From positions 1 to 64,000 of the forward strand of contig NZ_JACBGH010000010.1 of NCBI RefSeq assembly GCF_013391695.1: a DNA stretch of 64,000 bases, in the 5' to 3' direction. Each line of letters starts with the position of its first letter. Positions within the stretch are counted from its first letter, which is position 1. Origin of the DNA: Thiomicrorhabdus cannonii. GTDB lineage: Bacteria; Pseudomonadota; Gammaproteobacteria; Thiomicrospirales; Thiomicrospiraceae. Positions 3,992 to 29,339 of the stretch are shown piece by piece. A program made the translations under genes and the position numbers. The notes under the pieces were generated by a model that made no database searches, had not been told where the DNA came from, and saw only the letters and a program-made list of their open reading frames with translations.

Positions 3992-6046
3992 ATGACACAG
4001 ATTACTTCCTCAAACCCGTTGTTGGATATTAGCGATTTGCCACGATTTGAACTGTTTCACGTGGAACATATTGAACCCGCAGTGGAACAGTTGCTGGCAG
4101 ATAACCGCGCCGAGATCGCGCGTTTGGTAGCGATGACGGAAACGCCAACCTGGGAAAACTTCATTGAACCGTTGGAAATCATCGACAACCGCATGGAACG
4201 TGTCTGGGGGCCTATCGGCCATCTGGATTCGGTCAAGAACAGCGATGAATGGCATGCGGCTTACACCAATTGCCTGCAAAAAATCACCGCGTATCACACC
4301 GAAGTCGGGCAGAACAAAGGCTTGTTCGAGAAGTTCAATGCGATTGCCGACAGCGCGGCCTTTGCCGATTATTCACTGGCGCAGAAAAAGGTGATTGAAA
4401 ACGCGCTGCGCAATTTCCGTCTGTCCGGCATCGATTTGCCCGAGGCGCAACAAAAACAGTATCAGCAGATCAAACAGCAGCTGTCGCAGCTGACCAGCCA
4501 GTTTGGTAATAATGTATTGAAATCCACCCAGGCGTGGAACAAGCCGATCACCGATGCAACAGAATTGGCCGGTCTGCCGGAGAGTGCGTTGGGTTTGCTG
4601 CAGCAACTGGCACAGCAAAAAGGCTTGGAAGGGTATCTGGTGACCTTGGATTTCCCGTCCTATCTGGCGGTGATGACCCATGCGAACAACCGCGAATTGC
4701 GCGCCGAGGTCTACCGCGCCTTTGGCACACGCGCATCGGATCAGGCCAAAGACACCTCGTTTGATAATTCGCAGATAATCGAGCAGATTCGTCAATTGCG
4801 CCACCAGTTGGCCAATCTGTTGGGTTTCAAACAGTATGCCGATTATTCGCTCGCCACCAAAATGGCCGAGAGCACCGAACAGGTGCTGGGCTTTTTGCGC
4901 GATCTGGGCAAAAAATCCAAGCCGCAGGCACAGCGTGAGTTGGATAATCTGAAAGCCTTTGCCAAAGCCGAGCTGGGCATTGATGAGCTGCAGCCGTGGG
5001 ATGTGACCTATGCGTCCGAAAAGCTTAAAAACGCCAGTTTGTCACTGTCGCAGGAAGCCTTGCGCCCGTATTTCCCGGTGGAAGGCGTGTTAGCCGGCCT
5101 GTTCAAAATCACCCAGACGCTGTTTGGCGTGACGCTGCGGGAGAAGCAGGACGTGCCGGTCTGGCATCAGGATGTGCGCTTCTTTGAGTTGGTGGATGAA
5201 GCCGGTGCGGTGATTGGTCAGTTCTATCTGGATCTGTACGCGCGCGAGAACAAACGCGGCGGTGCCTGGATGGATTCGGCGGTGAGCCGCTGGAAACACA
5301 GCGGTGGCGAATTGCAAAAACCGGTGGCGTATCTGGTGTGCAATTTCACTCCGCCGGTGGGCGACAAGCCGGCGTGTCTGACGCATGACGAGGTCACCAC
5401 CCTGTTCCATGAGTTCGGGCACGGCATTCACCACCTGTTGACACAGATGGAGCATCTGGATATTTCGGGTATCAGCGGCGTGCCGTGGGATGCGGTGGAA
5501 TTGCCATCGCAGTTTATGGAGAACTTCTGCTGGGAGCGTGAGGGCTTGGATCTGATGTCGGCGCATATTGAAACGGGTGAGCCCTTACCTGACGATCTGT
5601 TTGCCGCGTTGAAAGCCAGCCGCGGCTTCCAGTCGGCGATGATGATGGTGCGCCAGCTGGAGTTTGCGTTGATGGATTTTGAGCTGCATAGCTTCTATAA
5701 CCCGGAAGAGACGGAAGACATTCTGCAGCTGGCCAAACGCATCCGCGACGAAGTCGCCGTGGTGCAGCCGCCGGAATACAGCCGTATGCTGCACAGTTTC
5801 AGCCATATTTTCGCCGGTGGTTATGCGGCGGGGTATTTCAGCTACAAGTGGGCGGAAGTGTTGTCTGCCGATGCGTTCAGCCTGTTTGAAGAAACGGGAA
5901 TTTTGAACTCGGAAACCGGCGCCAAATTCAAAAATACCATTCTGGCGGCGGGCGGATCGATCGATCCGATGGTGCTGTTCAAAGCCTTTAGAGGCCGCGA
6001 ACCAGAGATTGATGCGCTGTTGCGTCACAGCGGGATTGCGGCGTAA
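3992..6046 (+). CDS. prlC: Oligopeptidase A (M3 zinc metallopeptidase)
   Basis: A 684-residue M3-family metallopeptidase, the usual length of PrlC/oligopeptidase A. The zinc-binding motif HEFGHGIHH begins at His473, with the second metal ligand His477. Flanking features typical of the family include the NFTPPVGDKP stretch before it and HSFSHIFAGGYAAGYFSY near residue 600, which contributes substrate-binding residues. It degrades short peptides in the cytoplasm, including cleaved signal peptides. It appears monocistronic and ends at a strong hairpin built from two inverted copies of the dispersed GAACAGGCCGGGT repeat. Confidence 0.95.
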   Translation: MTQITSSNPLLDISDLPRFELFHVEHIEPAVEQLLADNRAEIARLVAMTETPTWENFIEPLEIIDNRMERVWGPIGHLDSVKNSDEWHAAYTNCLQKITAYHTEVGQNKGLFEKFNAIADSAAFADYSLAQKKVIENALRNFRLSGIDLPEAQQKQYQQIKQQLSQLTSQFGNNVLKSTQAWNKPITDATELAGLPESALGLLQQLAQQKGLEGYLVTLDFPSYLAVMTHANNRELRAEVYRAFGTRASDQAKDTSFDNSQIIEQIRQLRHQLANLLGFKQYADYSLATKMAESTEQVLGFLRDLGKKSKPQAQRELDNLKAFAKAELGIDELQPWDVTYASEKLKNASLSLSQEALRPYFPVEGVLAGLFKITQTLFGVTLREKQDVPVWHQDVRFFELVDEAGAVIGQFYLDLYARENKRGGAWMDSAVSRWKHSGGELQKPVAYLVCNFTPPVGDKPACLTHDEVTTLFHEFGHGIHHLLTQMEHLDISGISGVPWDAVELPSQFMENFCWEREGLDLMSAHIETGEPLPDDLFAALKASRGFQSAMMMVRQLEFALMDFELHSFYNPEETEDILQLAKRIRDEVAVVQPPEYSRMLHSFSHIFAGGYAAGYFSYKWAEVLSADAFSLFEETGILNSETGAKFKNTILAAGGSIDPMVLFKAFRGREPEIDALLRHSGIAA

Positions 6047-6074
6047 TTTCCAAAATTTGAAATTTTAGGAAAGT

Positions 6075-6117
6075 GAACAGGCCGGGTGTGTTGTCATACC
6101 CGGCCTGTTCAGTTTTT
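6075..6117 (+). terminator. Terminator of prlC formed by paired dispersed repeats
   Basis: GAACAGGCCGGGT at 6075-6087 and its exact reverse complement at 6098-6110 form a perfect 13-bp stem with a 10-base loop, followed by AGTTTTT. It looks like an intrinsic terminator 28 bases after the prlC stop. Both arms are copies of the repeat scattered through the window, an arrangement also seen for uptake signal sequences in other bacteria. Confidence 0.85.
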
Positions 6118-6130
6118 AAACGCCTGAAAA

Positions 6131-6161
6131 CAAAAAAGCCCTTGGAAGAATCGCCAAGGGC
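6131..6161 (-). terminator. Terminator of the porin gene
   Basis: GCCCTTGG (6138-6145) and CCAAGGGC (6154-6161) form an 8-bp stem. Read on the minus strand it is followed by a TTTTTTG run, giving an intrinsic terminator about 90 bases beyond the porin stop codon. Confidence 0.75.
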
Positions 6162-6252
6162 AATAGGCAGGGTAAGCTGCCTGGCAACAAAAGAAAGTCA
6201 CACTTAAAACGCATAAGGGATCAAATCCTTTCAATCCCCTTGAGTACTCTCC

Positions 6253-7617
6253 TTAGAACACCATCATTACTTGAGCGGATAAACGGTTATCTATAGCGTC
6301 AACGACTTTGGTGGGGTTTGAACCTGCCAGCGCCGTCGGTGCGGTCAAATCACGAATTTCGTAGTTAATTCGTGCCGACGTTTTCTTGTTAAAGAAATAC
6401 TGCGCACCCAGTGTGGTGGTGGTAAAGACGCGTTTTTTATCAATCGCCGTGCCGGTATTGGCATCTTTTTTAGTCGCACTGTTCAACACGTCGTAACGCA
6501 CGTTCAACTCGATATTGGGTTTAACGCGGTAACCGAAATCCAGCTGGTAAGCGTCTGCGGTTTGATCGGTAAACACCGATAAAGGCGTATTGGTTGCACC
6601 GCCTACCGGTCCGCCCCAGATCATCCCGTCAGCGGTGAAATATTCTGCGGCGGCGCGGTATTTACCGTCAAAATAGGTCATCCCCACACCGGCGCGGTCG
6701 CGTTTGTATGCTGTATTGTCTACGGTGCGTTTGCCCGATTGCGACCAGGCGTACATTTTCAGGCTGTGTCGGCGCGGCCCGTCTGAATTATCGAAGACTT
6801 TTTCGGCAGAACCATACAGATACAAATCCTTATGTTTGTCGTTGTCCGTCAACGCCAGACCATTACCGTTGCCGTACATGACGGCATAGCTATATTCCCA
6901 GTCATTGTGTTTAAAGGTATCGAAAACCTGGATACCGGTATCGCGAGCCGCAAATGCTGCTGCGGTTCTTTCGCCGTAGAGGGTGTCTGCCTGTCTGGCT
7001 CCTGCGGGAACACCATCAGGAAGGGCGGCCACCGCGGCGGAATTATCGACCGATTTCTCGATCAACAGGCGGTCGGTACCATTGGTGAAATTGACATAGT
7101 TGAAGACCGGAATCCCTTTAAAGGATTCTTCCGAACCCGGTGTTTTGAACAGACCGACACGGACGCGTGCGCCGTCGATTTTGTTGATTGTCACGCTGGC
7201 GTCGACCAATTGGCCTTGCGTGCCGCCGCCGGTGGTAATGCCGTTATTGCCGAATTCCGCCATCAGGAAATAGTTGACGTCCTTATCCAGTGGGAAATTG
7301 GCGCCGCGCACACCGATACGCGCACGCTTGATATTGAATCCGGATGAGGTATTTAACTGCGGCGCCATCTGGTTAAACGCCGCCGATGTGCCCGATAGAC
7401 CCGCCGCCCCACCTGTAAGGGTGGGCAGTTTGGTATCATCCGTTTGCTGATAATCAATCTGGGCGAATCCCCACAGTTTGGCAGCCGGTGCCTCATTGGG
7501 TTTCTCTGTTCCCTGAAGCATAAGCCAGTTGGCGGCTTGGGCGGTCGGAGCAGTCAGGGCGCCGGCCAGGGCGATTAACAGCGCCGATTTTTTAACAGTC
7601 GTATAGTTTTTTTGCAT
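6253..7617 (-). CDS. Outer-membrane porin (OprO/OprP-like)
   Basis: A 454-residue beta-barrel porin. A Sec signal peptide ends AQA-ANW (about residue 29), the mature chain alternates polar and aromatic residues, and the C-terminus is VMMVF, with the terminal Phe recognised by the Bam machinery. Motifs such as FNIKRARIGVRG and the final strand sequence resemble the phosphate-selective porin O/P family. It is the last gene of a probable minus-strand unit behind two DsrE-like genes, with an 88-base gap before it, and ends at a terminator. The pore solute is unknown; the context suggests a link to sulfur-compound uptake or envelope response (inference). Confidence 0.83.
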   Translation of the reverse strand: MQKNYTTVKKSALLIALAGALTAPTAQAANWLMLQGTEKPNEAPAAKLWGFAQIDYQQTDDTKLPTLTGGAAGLSGTSAAFNQMAPQLNTSSGFNIKRARIGVRGANFPLDKDVNYFLMAEFGNNGITTGGGTQGQLVDASVTINKIDGARVRVGLFKTPGSEESFKGIPVFNYVNFTNGTDRLLIEKSVDNSAAVAALPDGVPAGARQADTLYGERTAAAFAARDTGIQVFDTFKHNDWEYSYAVMYGNGNGLALTDNDKHKDLYLYGSAEKVFDNSDGPRRHSLKMYAWSQSGKRTVDNTAYKRDRAGVGMTYFDGKYRAAAEYFTADGMIWGGPVGGATNTPLSVFTDQTADAYQLDFGYRVKPNIELNVRYDVLNSATKKDANTGTAIDKKRVFTTTTLGAQYFFNKKTSARINYEIRDLTAPTALAGSNPTKVVDAIDNRLSAQVMMVF

Positions 7618-7705: not shown

Positions 7706-8194
7706 TTAGGGTCTGATATAGGTAAACCCTTGCTGTTGTAGGCGGGCGAGTTCCGCCACGCCGCTGGGTACGATGTGTTTGTCCTCGACATCGTAGAGAT
7801 CCTGGCTGTAATTGACGTTTTTGCCTTTGAGCGTGTTGGAGCAGACCTCAAATTGCACGCCCTGCAGTTTGAGCTGATCGATTTTCTGGCGCATTTCGGT
7901 TGTGGCATTGGCGTGATTGAACTTGGGCAGGTGCGCCAGCGCTTCCGGTTTAACCAGCAGACTCAGGCCGTTACCGTGCAATACCACGCGCAAATCCAGA
8001 TTATCCGGTTCGACCGCATTAATGTGGTTTTGGATGTTTCGCAGCGCCGAAGACTGCTGTTTGGCATCGTCGAAGTTGATGTGATACACCACCTTTTGCT
8101 TGCCGTAATACTCATTGGCCTGGGCATGGGTGATCGGCAGAATGGTGAACATAGCGATTAGCACCGTTTTAGAAATGTTTGATAATGTCAGCAT
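7706..8194 (-). CDS. Exported DsrE-like protein 1
   Basis: A 162-residue secreted protein: signal peptide about 1-26 (THAQA-NE), then a DsrE/DsrF-like sulfur-carrier fold. Seen directly: a first strand VVYHINFDD, a central LRVVLHGNGLSLL strand-loop and a single mature cysteine, Cys118, in QFEVCSNTL, the position where DsrE-family proteins bind sulfur or a thiol. The C-terminus GVAELARLQQQGFTYIRP closes the domain. It lies 12 bases after its paralogue at 8207-8665 and ahead of the porin gene. Family membership is strong; the ligand is unknown. Confidence 0.85.
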   Translation of the reverse strand: MLTLSNISKTVLIAMFTILPITHAQANEYYGKQKVVYHINFDDAKQQSSALRNIQNHINAVEPDNLDLRVVLHGNGLSLLVKPEALAHLPKFNHANATTEMRQKIDQLKLQGVQFEVCSNTLKGKNVNYSQDLYDVEDKHIVPSGVAELARLQQQGFTYIRP

Positions 8195-8206
8195 GTTTTT
8201 CCCTCG

Positions 8207-8665
8207 TTACGGTTGGAGGATTTGCCAGCCGGCGGCATTGAGCTGCAGAATGCGTCCCGCGCCGGCAGGAACGATTGTCACGCCTTCACTGACTTTCAAT
8301 TCATGGCCGAGCTGTTTGGCAAAGTTTTGCAGGGTGTTGTCACAGGCGCTGAAACGTACACCGCTGGCCATTAAGGATTTCATGCGCTTGATGTTCTCGT
8401 TGCCTTCCAGCATCAGCCGAACCCCGGGACCGAAGGCAACGACTTCGATATCGACGTTTTCAACGCCATAGTAGCGCTGTATGTTTTGAGCCACATTGAG
8501 CACCAGATTCTGTTTTGAAGGGTCTTTGTCACTGATTTGTAAAACCACTTTGTGCGCGGCGAAAGTGTCGGGTAGCGGCGCTTCTGTCTGTGCGGCAAAA
8601 ACAGGCAGTGCCAAAACCAAACCGATTAGCAACGCAAAAAGCCGTTGTGTTTGTTTTGTTAGCAT
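8207..8665 (-). CDS. Exported DsrE-like protein 2
   Basis: A 152-residue secreted paralogue of the downstream gene: signal peptide about 1-25 (VFAAQ), strand KVVLQISD, then IEVVAFGPGVRLML and the lone mature Cys108 in RFSACDNTL, matching the neighbour's FEVCSNTL. The C-terminus GAGRILQLNAAGWQILQP also aligns with it. It is the first gene of the minus-strand unit and is divergent from the ECF sigma factor gene across about 220 bases, so regulation by that sigma factor is likely. A role as periplasmic sulfur carrier or sensor is inference from the family. Confidence 0.85.
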   Translation of the reverse strand: MLTKQTQRLFALLIGLVLALPVFAAQTEAPLPDTFAAHKVVLQISDKDPSKQNLVLNVAQNIQRYYGVENVDIEVVAFGPGVRLMLEGNENIKRMKSLMASGVRFSACDNTLQNFAKQLGHELKVSEGVTIVPAGAGRILQLNAAGWQILQP

Positions 8666-8712
8666 GGTGTAAAACTCCGTTTGTGTAATCGAATTGAGCG
8701 CGCTTACCCCTT

Positions 8713-8740
8713 TAAACGAATGGCCCCCGTGTTTTATTCC
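8713..8740 (-). promoter_or_regulatory. Candidate ECF-type promoter for the DsrE/porin unit
   Basis: On the minus strand GGAATAA (8734-8740) is followed after about 15 bases by CGTTTA (8713-8718), resembling the GGAAC / CGT pattern of many ECF sigma-factor promoters. It is correctly placed, about 50-75 bases ahead of the first DsrE gene. This is a visual match to a loose consensus only. Confidence 0.3.
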
Positions 8741-8883
8741 TTTTTTTTAAAACAGTAATTTTTATTTGTCCACTAAACCACCTTATTTCATAACTTATTA
8801 ATATTTATAAAAAATTTGCACGCACCGTGAAAATGCAGTTAGTATCGAAAAAAGGCGAATTTTTAATAGGTGATGAAACAGTC

Positions 8884-9459
8884 ATGAATTTTTCCAGCAA
8901 GCTTGTCGATCTGTTCTGTGAATCGAAGGAGCGACGCCAGTTTAATCAGGCACTTGAAAGCAAATACCGGCGTTTGTATCGCTTGGCATTTGCCTGGTGC
9001 CATCAATCGTTCATGGCGGAGGATTTGGTGCAGGAAACTCTGCTAAAAGCCATAGAAAGCCGCAAGGATTTAAACAGTTTGGAGCATTTGGATGCATGGC
9101 TGACCAAGATCATGCATAATCAGTTTCTTGACAATATGCGTTTCAATCGCCGCTGGGAGTGGGCGGACGAAGCCGAAATCGACGATCATCTGGTGGTCGA
9201 TTGCAGCGAAACCGAATTGATTAAAAAACAGACCGCCGAGCAATTTTACGACGCCATCGCCAAACTGCCTTTTGCGCAGCGCGAAGCGATTACCCTTGCG
9301 GATTTACAGGGGTTCAGTTATCAGGAAATTGCCGAGATCACCGCCACGCCGATCGGTACGGTCATGAGCCGGATTGCGCGGGGTCGGGAGCGTTTGAGAA
9401 CCTTATTGCAACATCACGACGTTAACCAACCCAACGTTGTGTCGCTACGGAGAAAATAA
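8884..9459 (+). CDS. RNA polymerase ECF sigma factor
   Basis: A sigma-70 family, ECF-type factor of about 191 residues. Region 2 is visible as YRRLYRLAFAWC ... AEDLVQETLLKAIE (promoter melting and core binding), and region 4 as LPFAQREAITLADLQGFSYQ and EIAEITATPIGTVMSRIARG (helix-turn-helix for the -35 element). I prefer the ATG at 8884, about ten bases after AGGTG; an in-frame GTG at 8827 and ATG at 8833 would add 17-19 residues. The stop codon overlaps the start of the anti-sigma gene (TAATG), so the two are translationally coupled. It is divergent from the DsrE/porin unit, its most likely target. Confidence 0.92.
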   Translation: MNFSSKLVDLFCESKERRQFNQALESKYRRLYRLAFAWCHQSFMAEDLVQETLLKAIESRKDLNSLEHLDAWLTKIMHNQFLDNMRFNRRWEWADEAEIDDHLVVDCSETELIKKQTAEQFYDAIAKLPFAQREAITLADLQGFSYQEIAEITATPIGTVMSRIARGRERLRTLLQHHDVNQPNVVSLRRK

Positions 9460-10145
9460 TGGCTAAGGTATTTGAAAGTTATCAGCTTCATGCCTATGTT
9501 GACGGCCAGTTGAGCCGCGAAGAGTGTCTGGAAATCGAATTGGCCATGCAACTGCAGCCCGAATTGGAGCAGGAAATCGCACAGCTGCGTGCCTTGAAAG
9601 CCCAGGTCAAGGAGATGTATCAGGATATCGCTGTGCCCGAAAAAGTGCGCCAAAGCGCCAAACCGTCACGGGTCTGGTCACTGCCCAAAACGGTGGCGGC
9701 CTCTTTGGTTTTGGGGGCGTTTTTGGGCGCGGGCAGCCTGCAGGTGTATCTGAACGGTACGACTTTATTGCCTATGACGCAGCAGCAGGTTGCCGAGGGT
9801 AAATACCTGATCCATCTGGACTCCGACGACCATGCCAAACAGGCGCTGGCGTTGCAGGAGGTGGAGCGCCTTTTGCAGGAGGGCGGCTCGCACGTCAAGG
9901 TGGATTTTATTTCCAACTATCAGGGCGTGACCCTGTTTGATGTCAATAATCCCAACCGTCAGGAGCTGGAAGGGCTGTTAAGCAAGTATGATAATCTGAC
10001 CCTGTATGCCTGCAAACGCGCGTTGGAGCGCGCCATGGAAAAAGGCCAAACCTTGCAGATGTTGCCGCAGGTCAGGCACGAACAACCGGCGATTGATGCG
10101 GTGGCGCAACGTCTGAGTACGGGGTGGAAATACATTAAGATTTGA
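9459..10145 (+). CDS. Membrane anti-sigma factor with a DsrE-like periplasmic domain
   Basis: A 228-residue single-pass protein. Residues 1-60 form a short helical anti-sigma domain (YQLHAYVDGQLS, EIELAMQLQPELEQEI) without the CxxC of zinc-binding anti-sigmas. One membrane segment lies at about 78-97. Residues 115-228 then resemble the two exported DsrE-like proteins next door: strand KYLIHLDSDD, VKVDFISNYQGVTLF, Cys185 in LTLYACKRAL aligning with their single mature cysteine, and the ending RLSTGWKYIKI. The gene starts inside the sigma factor stop codon. I infer that the outer domain senses a sulfur or thiol signal, or binds the DsrE proteins, to release the sigma factor. The domain homology is by eye. 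Confidence 0.8.
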   Translation: MAKVFESYQLHAYVDGQLSREECLEIELAMQLQPELEQEIAQLRALKAQVKEMYQDIAVPEKVRQSAKPSRVWSLPKTVAASLVLGAFLGAGSLQVYLNGTTLLPMTQQQVAEGKYLIHLDSDDHAKQALALQEVERLLQEGGSHVKVDFISNYQGVTLFDVNNPNRQELEGLLSKYDNLTLYACKRALERAMEKGQTLQMLPQVRHEQPAIDAVAQRLSTGWKYIKI

Positions 10146-28433: not shown

Positions 28434-29339
28434 TTAGTAACGCGAAGGGCGGTTAGCTACTTCCGGCAGTCGCCAGGCTTCCGGTGTTAGGCTGCTTTCC
28501 AAGGCGTTCTCGATGCTGTCATCCAGATCGCTGAAAAAATCCAAACCGGTTTGCGCTTCAACCTCGTCGATGCTGACCACCAGTTTCATCAGGCTGATAT
28601 TGGCTTTGGCGTTTTGCGGGAAAATGAACGCCAGCGCTTTGGCGGGCTGCTCGGCTGTGGCCGGTTTAAGCAGAATCTTGTAAAACGCTTTGGGGATCGC
28701 CACGCCGCTTTTGAGGCGCTTGGGCTCGGCGTCAAAAACCGGGCCGGTCACGACCCAGAATTCGCCGAACCATTTGGAAAAATCGTTGGCGACCAACTCT
28801 TCCAGCCGCTGCCAGCTCTTCTGGTTGAGATTGGGTTTTTGCGGGGTGATATTGGTCATTTTGAAGGTATCGAGCTGCGCCGAACGCCCGTAACGGCTGG
28901 CAATCACATAGTTGGGCGCCATATGGCCGCGGTCGTAGCCGGTGCCGGTGTAGTCGTCATGGCTCACAAACGCCGGGCTGCGCCAGTCGGTGCTGAAGCC
29001 CGAAGGCCGCTTGCCGGGGATATAGTCCGCCGCGCCGACTTTGTAGGTGACCCACAGCGGGTTTTTGAGCGATTCGGAATAACTCAGCATAAAGCCGTCG
29101 TTGCGCAATACATGGCTCCACTGCCCTTTGGCGGGCACGGCGCTTTCCTGTGGCAAGCCCATATAGGCCATGGCCGGACGGGCGACAGTGACTTCGTAAC
29201 CGTACCAGAGCCCGCCGCCCAACACGGCGATGAGCAGGTATTTGGGATTTTTAATGACCAGGGTGAGCAGAGTTTGCAGCAGTGATAGCTGGTGACGGCG
29301 GTTCATCGACTTTCCATGCGTTGAATTGAAAGCCGTCAT
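28434..29339 (-). CDS. DNA/RNA non-specific endonuclease (NUC1 family), membrane-anchored
   Basis: Up to 301 residues; an internal ATG at 29306 (MNRRHQLSLLQ) is an equally good start. One N-terminal membrane segment (about 33-50, YLLIAVLGGGLWYGYEV) anchors or exports the protein. The catalytic motif is clear: TGTGYDRGHMAPN with the general-base His139, followed by MTNITPQKPNLNQKSW with the metal-ligand Asn. Enzymes of this family (Serratia nuclease, EndoG) cut single- and double-stranded nucleic acids with Mg2+. Likely nucleic-acid scavenging or envelope defence; no immunity gene is seen beside it. Confidence 0.9.
   Translation of the reverse strand: MTAFNSTHGKSMNRRHQLSLLQTLLTLVIKNPKYLLIAVLGGGLWYGYEVTVARPAMAYMGLPQESAVPAKGQWSHVLRNDGFMLSYSESLKNPLWVTYKVGAADYIPGKRPSGFSTDWRSPAFVSHDDYTGTGYDRGHMAPNYVIASRYGRSAQLDTFKMTNITPQKPNLNQKSWQRLEELVANDFSKWFGEFWVVTGPVFDAEPKRLKSGVAIPKAFYKILLKPATAEQPAKALAFIFPQNAKANISLMKLVVSIDEVEAQTGLDFFSDLDDSIENALESSLTPEAWRLPEVANRPSRY

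Follow-up and report, generated by a model that had tools for sequence, protein, structure and literature searches.

Membrane-bound switches of the RpoE-RseA type are built from a sigma factor with regions 2 and 4 and, in the next gene, an anti-sigma factor with a cytoplasmic domain, one membrane helix and a periplasmic part. Here we describe a pair of the same layout in Thiomicrorhabdus cannonii (genome of 2.49 Mb), on the first 64,000 nucleotides of contig NZ_JACBGH010000010.1, hereafter the window, in which the periplasmic part is instead a DsrE-fold domain resembling two secreted DsrE-like proteins encoded divergently beside it. The layout of an extracytoplasmic function (ECF) membrane switch is already known; what appears to be new, judging from the comparisons below, is the sensory domain. 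No description of an anti-sigma/DsrE fusion was found by title or start of abstract, in a literature that was covered in part and included few subscription papers.

The nearest parallel by function lies in Alphaproteobacteria. As far as the accessible text of two reports goes, ECF26 RpoE1 and RpoE4 of Sinorhizobium meliloti and SigE of Starkeya novella belong to ECF/anti-sigma pairs that respond to sulfite or compounds related to it and govern enzymes of sulfite oxidation; how the anti-sigma factor lets go of its partner is described there as unknown (PMC3511301, PMC6527743). The targets there are sulfite oxidases, and the term 'DsrE' does not occur in the main text of PMC6527743, its sole match in PMC3511301 being DsRed in a reference. 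In Hyphomicrobium denitrificans, according to the available portions of two further papers, the ArsR-type repressors SoxR and sHdrR place thiosulfate oxidation under sulfane-sulfur control (PMC10451225, PMC12423496), and thiosulfate sensing by sulfur oxidisers is described as little known (PMC10451225). SoxR and sHdrR, as presented there, are transcriptional repressors, whereas the system described here would be a membrane sigma switch.

We hold it to be rather probable that in sulfur-oxidising Gammaproteobacteria this pair forms an ECF switch in the membrane, whose periplasmic sensor is the DsrE domain and which activates the DsrE-porin operon and, in some relatives, sox genes. The computed part of this reading comprises the fold, the cysteine, the gene order, a common motif, the association with SoxB and the motif before sox genes in a minority of carriers. 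The features of the locus are as follows.

9459..10145, plus strand: anti-sigma factor of 228 residues; an open reading frame (ORF) with a predicted cytoplasmic anti-sigma domain, one membrane helix and a periplasmic DsrE-fold domain
9690..9752, plus strand: membrane helix of the anti-sigma factor (residues 78-98), predicted from an AlphaFold helix, hydropathy and charge pattern
9795..10142, plus strand: DsrE-fold outer domain of the anti-sigma factor (residues 113-228), from profiles, the AlphaFold model and structure matches
10011..10013, plus strand: codon of Cys185 of the anti-sigma factor, invariant and aligned with a cysteine of MTH1491
8884..9459, plus strand: ECF sigma factor with Pfam Sigma70 r2 and r4_2; the ORF opens at GTG 8827
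8207..8665, minus strand: secreted DsrE-like protein, gene 1 of the divergent operon (PF02635 at 1.4e-5; Cys108)
7706..8194, minus strand: secreted DsrE-like protein, gene 2 of the divergent operon (PF02635 at 6.3e-11; Cys118)
6253..7617, minus strand: porin-like outer-membrane beta-barrel protein, gene 3 of the divergent operon, from a low-confidence model and gene context
8715..8740, minus strand: putative promoter GGAATAAA-N14-CGTT, some 50 bp ahead of DsrE gene 1 (8207-8665)

Fold and cysteine of the anti-sigma outer domain

Residues 113-228 of the anti-sigma factor are a DsrE-fold domain. The first-pass annotation, made from the sequence alone, had described an anti-sigma domain, a membrane helix and an outer part resembling the secreted DsrE proteins. 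The three genes lie where it placed them, the peptides LTLYACKRAL, QFEVCSNTL and RFSACDNTL are all present, and profiles, an AlphaFold model and Foldseek bear out the domain description. Detection by Pfam PF02635 is a matter of threshold and not a defining feature of the DsrE fold: the model matches both secreted neighbours, misses the window's anti-sigma factor at E<=1 and matches 4 of 37 anti-sigma relatives at E<=0.01. Single-sequence BLASTP of the outer domain against each secreted neighbour was not significant (E 0.47 and 0.26), and pairwise sequence alone is therefore insufficient for the DsrE claim.

Profiles and structure carry it. A phmmer search of the whole Protein Data Bank (PDB) with the anti-sigma factor placed MTH1491 top over the full domain, but only at E 0.088; MTH1491 is likewise the top PDB match of the secreted protein 7706-8194 (9.9e-9). 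A profile of the 37-sequence family reached MTH1491 at 5.8e-12, followed by ST0148 and an engineered 'DrsE like' relative, and a broader 20-sequence profile reached MTH1491 at 3.1e-19. With hhalign, the outer domain aligned to the two secreted DsrE families at 99.6% (E 4.4e-24) and 98.9% (E 1.9e-17), against 0.1-2.0% for four control pairings (anti-sigma part, sigma family, porin family). The AlphaFold2 model of the anti-sigma factor has a mean pLDDT of 85.3, with 88-98 per ten-residue block over residues 111-228. At E<0.001, Foldseek returned five matches: MTH1491, ST0148, the engineered relative of the latter, and a further two whose titles name DsrE or DsrE/DsrF-like proteins. VIA-align gave Z 18.1 to 1l1s (MTH1491; 110 residues at 1.7 A), 18.0 to 2pd2 (ST0148) and 14.7 to YchN; rows 1-10 of its ranking run from Z 18.1 to 12.2, and row 11 drops to Z 7.1. 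AlphaFold and Foldseek, proposed with the first-pass annotation as a structure check, thus return the DsrE fold and not an unrelated one. Chance resemblance to DsrE was considered as well, and is ruled out by the profile comparison with its controls, the structure and the class-wide conservation.

The MTH1491/ST0148 group (1l1s, 2pd2; PF02635) shares both fold and cysteine position with the outer domain. MTH1491 stands alone, its function being unknown according to the title of its entry, whereas the domain described here is fused behind a helix to an anti-sigma domain. DsrEFH (2hy5, Z 13.1) and TusBCD (2d1p, Z 12.8) have the same fold. Both carry sulfur, are cytoplasmic and are tied to Dsr or to tRNA thiolation. 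The DsrEFH relay goes with dissimilatory sulfite reductase, whereas the window's genome lacks a DsrA match.

Cys185 is kept in 37/37 family sequences and, together with Trp223, in all 83 sequences of the wider anti-sigma set, the window's included. It aligns with a cysteine of MTH1491 in phmmer and profile alignments, and the secreted families hold a matching cysteine, Cys118 in 31/31 members of the 7706-8194 family and Cys108 in 30/30 of the 8207-8665 family. The first-pass annotation had spoken of a lone cysteine at the same place in all three proteins, whose loss among relatives would have told against it. Its position stands, no such loss appeared, and Cys185 is the sole cysteine of the outer domain; the description fails for the whole anti-sigma protein, which has a second, cytoplasmic cysteine, C23. 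One family locus, L051 (genome G034; L and G numbers denote loci and genomes), was left out of the anti-sigma alignment because its anti-sigma gene is split into two ORFs, 1863-2234 and 2278-2550, either a broken gene or an assembly error.

The remainder of the pair has the expected parts. The sigma protein consists of regions 2 and 4 only, in about 190 residues, as an ECF factor does, with Sigma70_r2 at 4.7e-13, Sigma70_r4_2 at 2e-17 (Pfam) and TIGR02937 over its cut-off. Its ORF (8827-9459) overlaps the anti-sigma gene by a single base; ATG 8884 is the probable start in preference to 8827, judging from the length of relatives (about 191 residues). In the anti-sigma factor, Pfam zf-HC2 matches below its curated cut-off, and the same domain is found in 28/37 relatives at E<=0.01. 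The helix at 78-98 is modelled at low pLDDT (50-57 per block), and the best hydropathy window begins at residue 78. Lysine and arginine number five in residues 60-79 and zero in 99-113, a pattern that places the N-terminus inside.

Spread, gene order and a common promoter-like motif

The anti-sigma protein is matched at 1e-15 in 89 of 369 Gammaproteobacteria genomes, and 66 of them, in 40 families, hold the full-length anti-sigma/DsrE protein. These carriers were picked by hand from the match rows by full-length coverage at 1e-15, partial matches such as those in G150, G318 and G323 being excluded; named carriers include Thiogranum, Thiohalobacter and Acidihalobacter metagenome-assembled genomes (MAGs). 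In a tree of 229 DsrE domains, 119 from anti-sigma factors and 110 secreted, the two kinds split without exception (support 0.888); since the domains are short and the tree comes from one FastTree run, this split is used and not the inner branches. Because the anti-sigma DsrE domains form one clade, the tree points to one old fusion event. The same separation rules out that the anti-sigma gene gained its outer domain recently, by duplication of the DsrE gene next to it.

Gene order was read in two sets. Within the family, which apparently includes Thiomicrorhabdus, Thiomicrospira and a Hydrogenovibrio MAG, 38 of 62 genomes match the anti-sigma protein. In 27 of 37 loci the order is sigma, anti-sigma and divergent DsrE gene(s) followed by a porin; the other ten are either truncated at the end of a contig or differ in layout, for instance with a downstream DsrE gene and no porin. 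Outside the family, we read 80 loci with 82 of the 83 full-length copies (G238:C4 was not included). A sigma gene adjoins 81/82 anti-sigma genes, the single miss having 124 bp of sequence on its upstream side. In the flanks read, which reach about 6 kb at most, a secreted DsrE gene occurs at 51 copies and a porin at 39, and 34/82 copies have the divergent DsrE and porin combination. The neighbourhood whose conservation the first-pass annotation had proposed to survey is retained in part of the loci outside the family as well.

Both secreted DsrE proteins of the window have signal-like N-termini, judged by eye. The porin-like protein (6253-7617) matches nothing in Pfam or NCBIfam at E<=1, and its relatives adjoin these genes in other Gammaproteobacteria families as well. 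Its predicted model is mostly beta (pLDDT 52.8), with porins and AlgE as top Foldseek matches, which, given the poor model, would indicate the barrel class only and not identity.

Several loci depart from this arrangement. In L206 (1-1362), L222 (3047-5218) and L247 (4494-6623), a SoxB-like gene divergent from the sigma gene replaces DsrE and porin and is faced by the promoter motif, an alternative target; all three products have a metallophosphatase domain, and that of L222 also has a 5'-nucleotidase domain. A family of proteins of about 540 residues is encoded divergently from the sigma gene in L087 (408-2039), L190 and L219 (3593-5206), and the two members scanned have no Pfam match. In the Thiogranum MAG loci L081, L085 and L089 (Pfam was run on L081 and L089 only), genes for MBL-fold hydrolases surround a secreted DsrE-like gene downstream of the anti-sigma gene. 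In L211 and L231 a DsrE gene comes after two tandem sigma/anti-sigma(DsrE) pairs, both of which have a promoter motif of their own.

A motif of GGAATA and CGTT or CGTC at nearly fixed spacing recurs at the sigma/anti-sigma loci. It faces the divergent gene in 32/32 family regions with a divergent target (DsrE, or porin in L069 and L070), against an expectation of 0.1, and faces the sigma gene in two of the 32, not in the window. Transcription of its own operon is common for an ECF sigma factor, though not a defining trait. Across the wider class it points sigma-ward in 50 of 80 regions and towards the divergent side in 27 (about 0.3 expected for each); all expectations come from mononucleotide shuffles. 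These counts depend on extraction, and a stricter position rule gives 41/82 sigma-ward and 18/82 divergent; in the 0.91 Mb scanned under that rule, 11 sites lie in other places and the reversed pattern matches 7 times.

Genome-wide, the motif of T. cannonii does not stand out. A scan with GGAATAA-N14..18-CGTT found 6 sites against 7 for the reversed control, and two of the five sites other than that of the operon lie, by ORF reading, on the opposite strand inside a flagellar gene and an aminotransferase gene. The window matches the promoter pattern once more, at 29076-29102 on the plus strand and with a longer spacer, probably by chance. A wide regulon in this genome is unsupported, the motif not being in excess over its reversed pattern; the regulon visible here would be the DsrE-DsrE-porin operon alone.

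Sulfur oxidation and the sox genes

The genomic link of the fusion to sulfur oxidation is strong. SoxB occurs in 65/66 carriers against 85/303 non-carriers (odds ratio 167, Fisher 5e-29), and 39 of the 40 carrier families include a carrier with SoxB. DsrA occurs in 51/66 against 63/303 (odds ratio 13), and every one of the 66 carriers has SoxB or DsrA. RuBisCO, the control for lithoautotrophy, occurs in 60/66 against 127/303 (odds ratio 14). For both SoxB and DsrA the threshold was E<=1e-100, which admits truncated copies (SoxB in 150 genomes, against 148 over the curated cut-off, with that of G159 under it). A link to DsrA in place of SoxB was considered and set aside: the association is weaker, and the window's genome (G000) has no DsrA match.

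The motif also occurs near sox genes in part of the carriers. With the strict pattern GGAATAA-N15..16-CGTC, we scanned 63 carrier genomes and 63 of the 85 SoxB-bearing non-carriers; pairs of site and soxB were chosen by eye from lists, and 19 were measured. Upstream of soxB, on its strand and at most 3 kb away, such a site is present in 11/63 carriers (G070, G140, G182, G211, G227, G264, G296, G322, G332, G369 and G418) against 1/63 non-carriers (Fisher 0.004). The sole non-carrier, G424, belongs to family f10, which also has three carriers. In G140, G182, G264 and G296 a relaxed pattern has one site 2.5-2.6 kb before soxB, heading the sox genes, and a second immediately before soxB. In G140 Pfam identifies SoxY, the cytochrome domain of SoxA, a cytochrome c where soxX would be and, within the SoxB protein, a 5'-nucleotidase domain; the genes upstream of soxB in the other three were named from ORF reading.

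In a sample of 30 carriers and 30 non-carriers that was defined in advance, pattern sites were found in 9 against 1 (p only 0.012), with none on the other strand; one of the nine carrier sites, that of G216, lies 3.8 kb upstream and is the promoter of the sigma gene, and three of the non-carriers (G176, G218 and G219) have less than 700 bases upstream. Reversed-pattern controls gave 1 and 0 in carriers and 1 and 2 in non-carriers. A weight matrix built from sigma-locus sites only gave 10 against 1 on the same sample at score 14 (Mann-Whitney p 0.007), and on the other strand 1/30 carriers and 0/30 non-carriers at that score.

Gene order joins the two systems directly in two genomes. In G326 (L306), the sigma and anti-sigma genes share a strand with soxX, soxY, soxA and soxB and stand directly before them, while the genes for DsrE and the porin diverge, and G216 (L305) has the same layout by ORF reading. 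In G227 (L307) the motif stands before soxX of a soxX-soxY-soxA-soxB run. In that locus, a DsrE-like gene (8624-9064) directly follows soxB, and Pfam has no DsrE match to it. The window's genome holds a third secreted DsrE-like gene (L071, on G000:C1; 3821-4369, plus strand), about 0.7 kb from a soxB gene (5055-6968, minus strand); an acetyltransferase-like ORF lies between the two, with no promoter motif there.

The proposed switch and its alternatives

In the switch that we favour, the cytoplasmic end of the anti-sigma factor would keep the sigma factor at the membrane, while the outer DsrE domain with its invariant cysteine would sense a sulfur species made or imported in the periplasm, candidates being thiosulfate, tetrathionate, polysulfide and sulfane sulfur. 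Sensing could proceed by a direct adduct at Cys185 or by way of the secreted DsrE proteins that resemble the outer domain. The sigma factor would be released by such an adduct, or by a loaded DsrE protein acting on the outer domain, and would then transcribe the divergent DsrE-DsrE-porin operon and, in some relatives, also its own gene, soxXYZA and soxB. We infer which ligand is bound, what chemistry takes place at the cysteine, which way the response runs and that the sigma factor uses the motif; fold and context suggest that the secreted DsrE proteins and the porin would serve uptake or carriage of sulfur compounds. The available part of a study of Metallosphaera reports that DsrE3A and TusA react with tetrathionate and pass on thiosulfate (PMC4175335), showing DsrE-fold proteins with a reactive cysteine as sulfur handlers. 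The idea of a sulfur- or thiol-sensing switch whose sensor and regulon share a fold had been raised in the first-pass annotation; it gains partial support from the common DsrE fold of the outer domain and the likely regulon products, the invariant cysteine, the kept neighbourhood and the link to sulfur oxidation. Persulfide binding at Cys185, or a mixed oligomer with the secreted proteins, the two routes that the annotation named, would both be candidate mechanisms.

Several observations weigh against this switch. DsrE-fold proteins need not all carry sulfur, and Cys185 could instead serve a disulfide or a metal. Neither DsrE gene nor porin is found in the flanks of 26/82 wider copies. Autotrophy is likewise enriched in carriers, and the genomes share ancestry, which makes the p values overstated, yet the carriers span 40 families. 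As many as 52 of the 63 scanned carriers lack a strict site within 3 kb upstream of the soxB positions listed, a count that includes G115, for which no soxB position was found, and G191 and G349, with none among the positions listed, and in which second soxB copies may be missed. The relaxed scan of the window's genome gave 25 matches against 40 for the reversed pattern. In that genome no motif site was found by either of the two soxB copies that were read, nor by either of its two soxY genes, and the sox link thus characterises part of the system's lineage.

A more specific version makes the outer domain a carrier turned sensor. A sulfane-sulfur or thiosulfonate adduct at Cys185, formed directly or handed over by a secreted DsrE protein, would free the sigma factor to express the DsrE-porin operon and, in some branches of the lineage, the sox pathway, and this would be a main thiosulfate-sensing route in a large share of the sulfur-oxidising Gammaproteobacteria. 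We offer it tentatively, as a possibility rather than an expectation.

Less likely again, though deserving attention, is indirect sensing, in which the outer domain would bind no ligand of its own and would sit in a mixed DsrE oligomer with the secreted proteins; their sulfur loading or shortage would break the oligomer and free the sigma factor, so that the products double as feedback partners. The outer domain and the secreted proteins have the same fold, a DsrE gene lies in the flanks of 51/82 copies, and the divergent DsrE operon bears the motif. DsrE-fold proteins form homo- and hetero-oligomers, and YchN, TusBCD and DsrEFH are among the structure matches. Yet 31/82 copies have no DsrE gene within flanks of about 6 kb, though one could be elsewhere in the genome, and the anti-sigma domains form a clade apart from the secreted ones.

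We consider it improbable that the pair is a switch for envelope thiol or oxidative stress, with Cys185 meeting oxidants, metals or wrong disulfides, the DsrE-porin operon a stress or detoxification response and the SoxB association an effect of habitat. A single invariant periplasmic cysteine would suit such a role, the RuBisCO enrichment shows that habitat alone yields an association, and the ECF26 sulfite response, whose release mechanism is yet unknown, is called a stress response in the accessible text of PMC6527743. The odds ratio of 167 for SoxB is nonetheless far above the 14 for RuBisCO, and in some carriers motif sites stand before the sox genes themselves. Least probable of all is that the DsrE domain is merely a structural or protease-regulated part with no sulfur role, the signal being anti-sigma proteolysis as for RseA: regulated proteolysis is a common release route of one-helix anti-sigma factors and could still be a downstream step of the switch that we favour, but the invariance of Cys185 and Trp223 in 83/83 sequences argues for a kept chemical function, and the strong link to SoxB carriers also counts against this explanation.

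The fusion is likely to be a sensor of outside sulfur in sulfur-oxidising bacteria. Hydrogenovibrio genomes, according to the available part of PMC6501319, hold five dsrE homologues but lack the rest of the Dsr machinery, which the fusion system may help explain. The gene pair, present in 40 families, is a concrete candidate sensor with a cysteine to mutate and a putative promoter sequence. If the proposal is true, it would add to the repertoire of ECF anti-sigma factors a new sensory domain, one that shares its fold with the products it likely controls.

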